46,563 nt of DNA from Desulfovibrio sp. (GTDB taxonomy: Bacteria; Bacillota; Dethiobacteria; DTU022). The DNA lies in NCBI GenBank assembly GCA_020060545.1, contig JAGUZX010000103.1, positions 1 to 46,563 on the forward strand, in the 5' to 3' direction. The notes beneath the pieces are model-generated. The model did no database searches. It was not told the origin of the DNA and saw only the letters and a list, made by a program, of their open reading frames with translations. Made by a program: the position numbers and the translations under genes. This document shows, one piece after another, positions 44,064-46,205 of this stretch; position 1 is the stretch's first letter; each line of letters opens with the position of its first letter.

Positions 44064-44100
44064 TTACAAACAAACCTCCTTTAAGTTAATAATGAATAAT

Positions 44101-44180
44101 GGGGGTCAGACCTCGAATAGTGAATTTAAATAGTAAAACCTGCTACTAACTCACTTTTCAAGGTCTGACCCCCCTTTTTT
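44101..44180. repeat. Inverted-repeat element, family C (GGGGGTCAGACCT)
   Basis: GGGGGTCAGACCTCGAATAG... pairs with ...CTTTTCAAGGTCTGACCCCC, arms of about 25 bp with three mismatches, core of about 24 nt; TTTTTT follows on the plus strand. It lies between the second crotonase and the MerT-like gene's stop. Confidence 0.85.
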
Positions 44181-44189
44181 ACTGTTCCG

Positions 44190-44468
44190 TTAGTAGAAGA
44201 TGAGGATAAGCGCCACCGCCGCCGTGGAAACCCACAAAATAGCTTGATCAAGCTTTTTGGGATTGGCTTTCTTGTACATTAAAAAGTGTGAGAGGGCCAG
44301 AAAGAGCACGGCCAAAACGGTAAAATGAATCCTGTATCTGCCTAAAACCGCCAATCCGCTCAGTAAACCGCTGAGACCCAGCGGAATAAAAATGGCCGGC
44401 CCCAGTCAGCAGATTGTCGCCAGCACCGACGAGAGCACCGAACCCAGGCTCGCCAGCTTCTCTTTCAT
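44190..44468 (-). CDS. MerT-like membrane transporter, probable selenoprotein (in-frame TGA at codon 21)
   Basis: Absent from the ORF track because of an in-frame TGA. From ATG 44468 (AAGGGGA about 9 nt upstream; another in-frame ATG at 44504) the minus strand codes 92 residues with one TGA (44408-44406) and ends TAC TAA at 44190. Before it: MKEKLASLGSVLSSVLATIC; after it: LGPAIFIPLGLSGLLSGLAV. Mercuric transporter MerT has CCLGP followed by LGFSG at this place, so TGA replaces the second Cys of the metal-binding pair in helix 1. Three membrane helices are predicted by eye (about 8-38, 50-68, 78-92), as in MerT. The frame stays open and protein-like on both sides, and a SECIS-like hairpin follows. 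A plain nonsense pseudogene is the alternative. It is divergent from a ModE-like regulator. Confidence 0.82.
44368..44384 (-). promoter_or_regulatory. Candidate bacterial SECIS hairpin
   Basis: On the transcript strand CCGCUG-GGUCU-CAGCGG, a perfect 6-bp stem with a five-base loop, starts its loop 27 nt after the UGA. Bacterial SECIS elements lie inside the coding region with a G/GG-containing loop about 16-37 nt from the UGA; from memory the E. coli fdhF element also has a GGUCU loop. Confidence 0.8.
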
Positions 44469-44528
44469 CGACAGTAATCCCCTTTCCAGTTGATGTACAT
44501 CCATGATGCTTGCTGCTTCTCTTATTAC

Positions 44529-44559
44529 ATTATACAATATTTCAGCGGGTTTAGCCGCT
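44529..44559 (-). promoter_or_regulatory. Promoter region of the MerT-like gene with palindrome
   Basis: Perfect TATAAT (44534-44529) on the minus strand, about 60 nt before ATG 44468. No good -35 box. AGCGG-GTTTAG-CCGCT (44544-44559) lies in the -35/-10 spacer and could be a binding site for a regulator. Confidence 0.5.
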
Positions 44560-45128: not shown

Positions 45129-46205
45129 TTAATTACGCCTTGGCCACGTAAGCAGAAAAATCCCGGCGGCCACCGCCGTCAAGGCGCCCAAACAGGTAAA
45201 GCCTAAAGGCAGTCCTGAACGCGATGAAGTATCTACCAGGGAGGAGTCATATGAGGAAAAATATATTTTACTACTACCTAAATAATTATTTAAATAATAA
45301 GATAAAATAACAAAGCGGCCGCCACCCCATGCTACCCCAAGTAACGTCTCACCTTCAATTATGGCAGCCTTCGACCACTTTCCCCCGTCCGGCGAGATAA
45401 GGATGGTTCCTTCGTGGGCCACAGCGATGAACAGGCCATCGCCAAAAGCAACATCATCTAATTGCTTATCTGAAACTGCAATAACCTGTGATGACCATGT
45501 CTTCCCATCCGGTGAAGTAAGAATAAAATTTGAAGTATGCTCGGTGAATAAAGAACCGACGGCAACAAAGAGACTGTCACCCCAAACCACCCCGGTTAAA
45601 ACCAAATCCGTAGCAATCTCTGACCATATCTTTCCATCCGGCGAGGTAAGGATAATGTTGGATAATCCTTCGGTGGCGAAACAACCAACAGCAACAAAAA
45701 GACCGTCACCCCAGGCCACGTCACTGAACCATGGCTTTTTGGTGACTGTATCAACACTTGACCATGTCTTCCCGTCCGGTGAGGTGAGGATAACGCCGCC
45801 AACACCTACAGCAACAAAAAGACCGTCACCCCAGGCCACGCCTTCTAAGCACGCATCTGTAACTGCAGCAATCCTTGACCAGTCCCTTCCGTCCGGTGAA
45901 GTAAGAATAACGCCTTCATTTCCTACAGCGACAAACAGGTCCTCCCCCCAGGTTACGCCCTCCAAGCGCTTATCTGTAACGGGCGTGGCTTTGATCCACG
46001 TCTCCCCATCTGGGGAATGAAGGATTATTCCCTTATCTCCCACAGCAACAAACAAACCTTCGCCATAGGTAACTGCATTTAAAGGTGGGGAAATGGCCTC
46101 TACGCTTACAGTCCATGCTAATTGATGAGCCGATACTACCGAAGACAGAAACAGCAAAAACAAAACCAGTACCGAAAAAACCGCCTTTTTCAAAGAGTGG
46201 GTCAT
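45129..46205 (-). CDS. Secreted SPDG-repeat (beta-propeller-like) protein with C-terminal membrane anchor
   Basis: 358 aa. Signal peptide ending VVSA (about residue 26), about seven repeats of about 40 residues of the type VAWGDGLFVAVG...ILTSPDGKTWS, then a C-terminal hydrophobic segment (LGFTCLGALTAVAAGIFLLTW) and Arg-Arg tail that anchor it outside the cell. The SPDG-TW pattern resembles Asp-box/BNR or YCF48-like blades; no enzyme site seen. Visibly more A/T-rich than neighbouring genes. ATG with GGGAGG upstream. Confidence 0.82.
   Translation of the reverse strand: MTHSLKKAVFSVLVLFLLFLSSVVSAHQLAWTVSVEAISPPLNAVTYGEGLFVAVGDKGIILHSPDGETWIKATPVTDKRLEGVTWGEDLFVAVGNEGVILTSPDGRDWSRIAAVTDACLEGVAWGDGLFVAVGVGGVILTSPDGKTWSSVDTVTKKPWFSDVAWGDGLFVAVGCFATEGLSNIILTSPDGKIWSEIATDLVLTGVVWGDSLFVAVGSLFTEHTSNFILTSPDGKTWSSQVIAVSDKQLDDVAFGDGLFIAVAHEGTILISPDGGKWSKAAIIEGETLLGVAWGGGRFVILSYYLNNYLGSSKIYFSSYDSSLVDTSSRSGLPLGFTCLGALTAVAAGIFLLTWPRRN

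Follow-up and report, generated by a model that had tools for sequence, protein, structure and literature searches.

A new member of the predicted MerT selenoprotein family, with a predicted Cys-Sec pair at an in-frame TGA

A short reading frame on the minus strand of the window (the whole 46,563-nucleotide stretch of DNA analysed here) contains a single in-frame TGA, which raises the question of whether this codon is a stop that has broken a gene for a small membrane protein or a codon for selenocysteine (Sec). The second reading is favored: judged by sequence comparison, the locus is very probably a true MerT-family selenoprotein gene, with a probability of roughly 0.93. The relevant features are as follows.

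44190..44468, minus strand: Sec-MerT gene, ATG start, 92 codons and a TAA stop (read from the sequence, profile matches)
44406..44408, minus strand: in-frame TGA, codon 21, predicted selenocysteine, with Cys20 directly before it (sequence, alignment)
44368..44384, minus strand: bacterial SECIS-like hairpin CCGCUG-GGUCU-CAGCGG, within the coding region, 21 nt 3' of the UGA (covariation)
44478..44487, minus strand: ribosome-binding sequence GGAAAGGGGA (read from the sequence)
44529..44534, minus strand: TATAAT, possible -10 box (sequence, promoter scan)

The frame runs from ATG at 44468 through TGA at 44408..44406 to TAA at 44192..44190, and translation of minus 44468..44190 confirmed the 92-codon gene with one in-frame TGA that had been proposed in a first-pass annotation. 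The position given there (44190-44468) was right, and the strand, which had been left unstated, is minus; several stops are present on the plus strand of this segment. Of the start signals that had been assigned to the gene, the ATG and the ribosome-binding sequence held. The -10 box is present without a convincing -35, as a promoter scan of the minus strand found no -35 matching the perfect TATAAT at 44534..44529, and the promoter evidence is therefore weak.

With Cys put at the TGA, the product matches the NCBIfam model merT_RC607 (E 1.9e-20, residues 2-91) at 73 bits, where the model cut-off is 130, and Pfam MerT (E 1.2e-7) at 32.2 bits, where the gathering score is 32.9. Each of the 17 members in the alignment also reaches E <= 0.001 against merT_RC607. 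This model (NF033560) represents the MerT of Gram-positive mer operons, to which the window protein aligns over 91 of 97 model positions, with the same CC/CU-LGP site and loop; unlike the window gene, which stays under the model cut-off, the mer-operon form has Cys-Cys, lies beside merR/merP/merA and has no stable hairpin. The predicted fold of the window protein comprises three helices at low confidence (pLDDT 60). In the alignment, the vicinal Cys pair of MerT helix 1 (the helix being taken from that low-confidence model) is present as Cys-Sec, and the local motif is TICU-LGP, compared with CCLGP in Cys homologues. Segment 44468..44190 (minus) is a real gene for a small MerT-family membrane protein.

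The TGA recurs in homologues. When 399 genomes of the phylum were searched with a profile, 36 matches were obtained (the window's own match extended beyond its TAA), and exactly one in-frame TGA occurs in 32 of them, including the 32 strongest; of the 23 matches from an earlier protein search covering 200 relatives, 20 had exactly one in-frame TGA. The position, equivalent to codon 21, is identical in all homologues read out. Since the TGA is retained at the same codon by homologues from many genera, the frame is beyond chance. Relatives without the TGA carry Cys at the aligned position, and the sequence is CCLGP in the MerT proteins of annotated mer operons on Bacillota plasmids. Hosts found in a related-loci search with a close subset of the alignment include Carboxydocella thermautotrophica; the same kind of search with the single window protein gave no match. 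The gene was not found in same-family genomes in the protein search of 200 relatives, and no plasmid record matched the DNA of the region. In the nearest relative found, from the same order (L038 / L111, G060:C15), the TGA and hairpin are kept, and the frame stops at about 49 codons and looks degraded.

The neighborhoods of these genes bear on what the protein does. At the window locus, the neighbors are a following enoyl-CoA hydratase gene and a divergent HTH_1 (LysR-type) gene; no metal gene adjoins, and merR, merP and merA, a setting customary for MerT genes though not required to define them, are not found around it. No MerA match above cut-off and no zf_CopZ protein were found in the source genome, so that, together with the lack of an adjoining metal gene, the case for a mercury role is weak here. 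Elsewhere, the genome encodes a small HMA protein and has an 839-codon frame containing two HMA domains. Two other features of the window were recorded: an imperfect 39-nt inverted repeat around GGGGTCAGACCT (44088-44186), between the Sec-MerT and enoyl-CoA hydratase genes, and a 358-codon ORF of approximately 40-residue repeats (VAVGxxGVILTSPDGxxW; 45129-46205, minus).

Two motif types were distinguished among 24 distinct Sec-MerT loci, which are related in sequence and hence do not count as independent events. In the CxxU type (Cys three before Sec; L105, L106, L107, L051, L112, L113, L114, L115 and L118), a rhodanese-domain lipoprotein gene comes next on the same strand within about 200 nt at 9/9 loci, while the CU type (Cys directly before Sec), to which the window gene belongs, has a downstream rhodanese lipoprotein at 0/15. 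No paper on the CxxU/rhodanese association was found in the literature searched, and the association may be new. Genes for ArsR, MerR, CopZ-like (zf_CopZ) proteins or HMA P-type ATPases occur close to several of the CU-type relatives. Tentatively, the family might be split into two functional types, a CU type often accompanied by metal-handling neighbors and a CxxU type with a rhodanese lipoprotein, the latter possibly acting on sulfur or selenium species instead of mercury. Directly 3' of one Sec-MerT gene (L034 / L108, G142:C24), a MerP/HMA-like ORF has an in-frame TGA of its own (TUQSNC); with Cys put at that TGA, its HMA match (E 1e-4) is just under cut-off.

As metal genes are absent beside the window copy, a soft-metal role has to be drawn from the family and from relatives, and on this basis such a role appears fairly probable. 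The gene could also encode a true selenoprotein that is no metal transporter, its Sec site acting at the membrane in redox or sulfur/selenium chemistry. The rhodanese lipoprotein of the CxxU homologues and the lack of a MerA match above cut-off would suit this possibility; however, the window gene is of the CU type, in which the rhodanese gene does not follow and metal-related neighbors recur, and its best family match is a mer-operon MerT, so that a non-transporter function is rather unlikely for this gene.

The hairpin at 44384..44368 (minus) sits in the codons for Pro-Leu-Gly-Leu-Ser-Gly. Over 24 sequences, 88.9% of its cells are paired, with 20 double-change cells, and 0 of 500 shuffles were as good; in slid-window controls, pairing falls to 36-62%. 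Because the hairpin arms are coding sites, a codon-preserving null was applied, in which synonymous codons were randomised by usage in the same genes (26 genes, 1000 randomisations). Paired cells numbered 140 of 156, compared with 86.7±6.2 after randomisation (maximum 106 in 1000), and the summed hairpin energy was -137 versus -39±8 kcal/mol. Moreover, a Watson-Crick pair between two Leu third bases was seen in 22 of the 26 genes, versus 4.5±2.0 in the randomised sets. Complementary arms are retained in more divergent members despite changed loop codons. In TGC/TGT-coded genes (n=12, one probably a stray match), a mean of 3.75 of the 6 pairs can form, compared with 5.38 in TGA-coded ones, and most of the former fold more weakly. 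The minimum-energy fold begun just 5' of the UGA favors a different pairing, and the case for the hairpin therefore rests on covariation; an Rfam scan of the window gave no element at gathering threshold. Bacterial SECIS elements generally lie a short distance after the UGA and have a loop starting with G, and the window hairpin agrees in position and in the loop G. By these comparisons, this putative element fits a bacterial SECIS element.

The Sec machinery of the source genome was also surveyed. One contig carries selB (391 bits) and selD (374 bits), the latter containing an in-frame TGA, and each of two formate dehydrogenase (fdhA) genes has one in-frame TGA. These further TGA-containing genes of the same genome (selD, L021 7140-8222; formate dehydrogenases L155 and L156, G000:C37) are, given their single in-frame TGA, likely to encode selenoproteins too. 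Only a C-terminal fragment of selA was recovered, which lies at the beginning of a contig and directly follows an in-frame stop. The tRNA-Sec gene (selC) was found neither in the 135-contig draft (95% complete), where the eight best RF01852 matches are ordinary tRNAs, nor on the contig carrying selB and selD; the latter absence says little, because tRNA-Sec does not adjoin selA or selB in relatives. In the same search, tRNA-Sec was above cut-off in 27 of 40 genomes, the source genome being among the 40. The gaps in selA and tRNA-Sec are read as putative assembly loss.

The missing tRNA-Sec and incomplete selA, the isolated position of the gene and its absence from closer relatives would be in keeping with a sequencing error or decay, in which the TGC/TGT of an ordinary Cys-Cys MerT became a stop. 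Against this stand the same TGA codon in homologues of many genera, a hairpin maintained through compensating synonymous changes and a frame conserved 3' of the TGA to its end, which make such an origin very improbable. A changed genetic code, with TGA read as, for example, Trp or Gly, would leave the frame looking identical, but it is hardly credible, since TGA terminates long frames in the window, giving no sign of genome-wide recoding, Cys is aligned there in relatives without TGA, and selB occurs with TGA-containing selD and fdhA.

The first-pass annotation proposed a Cys-Sec pair in a MerT-like selenoprotein, and this is borne out in most respects; the tighter metal binding suggested there for such a pair is a prediction. 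As aligned plasmid mer-operon proteins indicate, the TGA occupies the codon of the second Cys in the MerT pair; homologues with Cys at position 21 and others with TGA plus the conserved hairpin, both of which the annotation had anticipated, were found. Of the sel genes that it had listed, selB and selD were present, and selA (a fragment) and selC fell short in the draft. By comparison of sequences, the TGA almost certainly encodes Sec beside Cys. In the MerT selenoprotein reading, UGA codon 21 would be read as Sec during translation through SelB binding to the mRNA hairpin 21 nt downstream, as conservation and covariation support. Three helices are predicted in the small product, and Cys20-Sec21 of helix 1 stands in for the Cys-Cys pair of MerT. 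The most likely ligand of this pair would be a soft metal, either Hg(II) or perhaps Cu(I) or a similar ion, which might then be moved through the membrane or handed to a partner in the cytosol.

Among published selenoprotein families is a putative mercuric transport protein, pfam02411 MerT (PMC9312934), and a putative mercuric transport protein is likewise listed for marine metagenomes (PMC2398784). Another paper gives the motif C/SxxU, crediting Zhang & Gladyshev 2007, with ABB16073.1 as an example (PMC13188914). As with the window gene, Sec is predicted at an in-frame TGA in the MerT proteins of this PF02411 family; the family differs in motif, as the window sequence TICU has Thr three before Sec (ABB16073.1 was set beside it by description only). 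Another predicted selenoprotein, the MerT/CopZ fusion-like heavy metal transport protein (NF045683), matches the window protein in its MerT part (E 2.1e-7), whereas a CopZ part is missing from the window protein, which scores far under the 375-bit cut-off. No experimental characterisation of a MerT-family selenoprotein was found in the literature searched. As the predicted family is already published, the window gene adds a new, well-supported member to a known kind.

Read with the standard code, the frame would end at the TGA and the gene would be truncated; the analysis recovers it, and provides strong comparative evidence for the SECIS element of the window Sec-MerT. The split between CU and CxxU motifs and their partners offers a concrete hypothesis on function. 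Sec-containing transporters have been predicted, with more work on what they do called for (PMC13188914); a compact Cys-Sec site in a membrane protein, open to testing, would therefore be a useful model.
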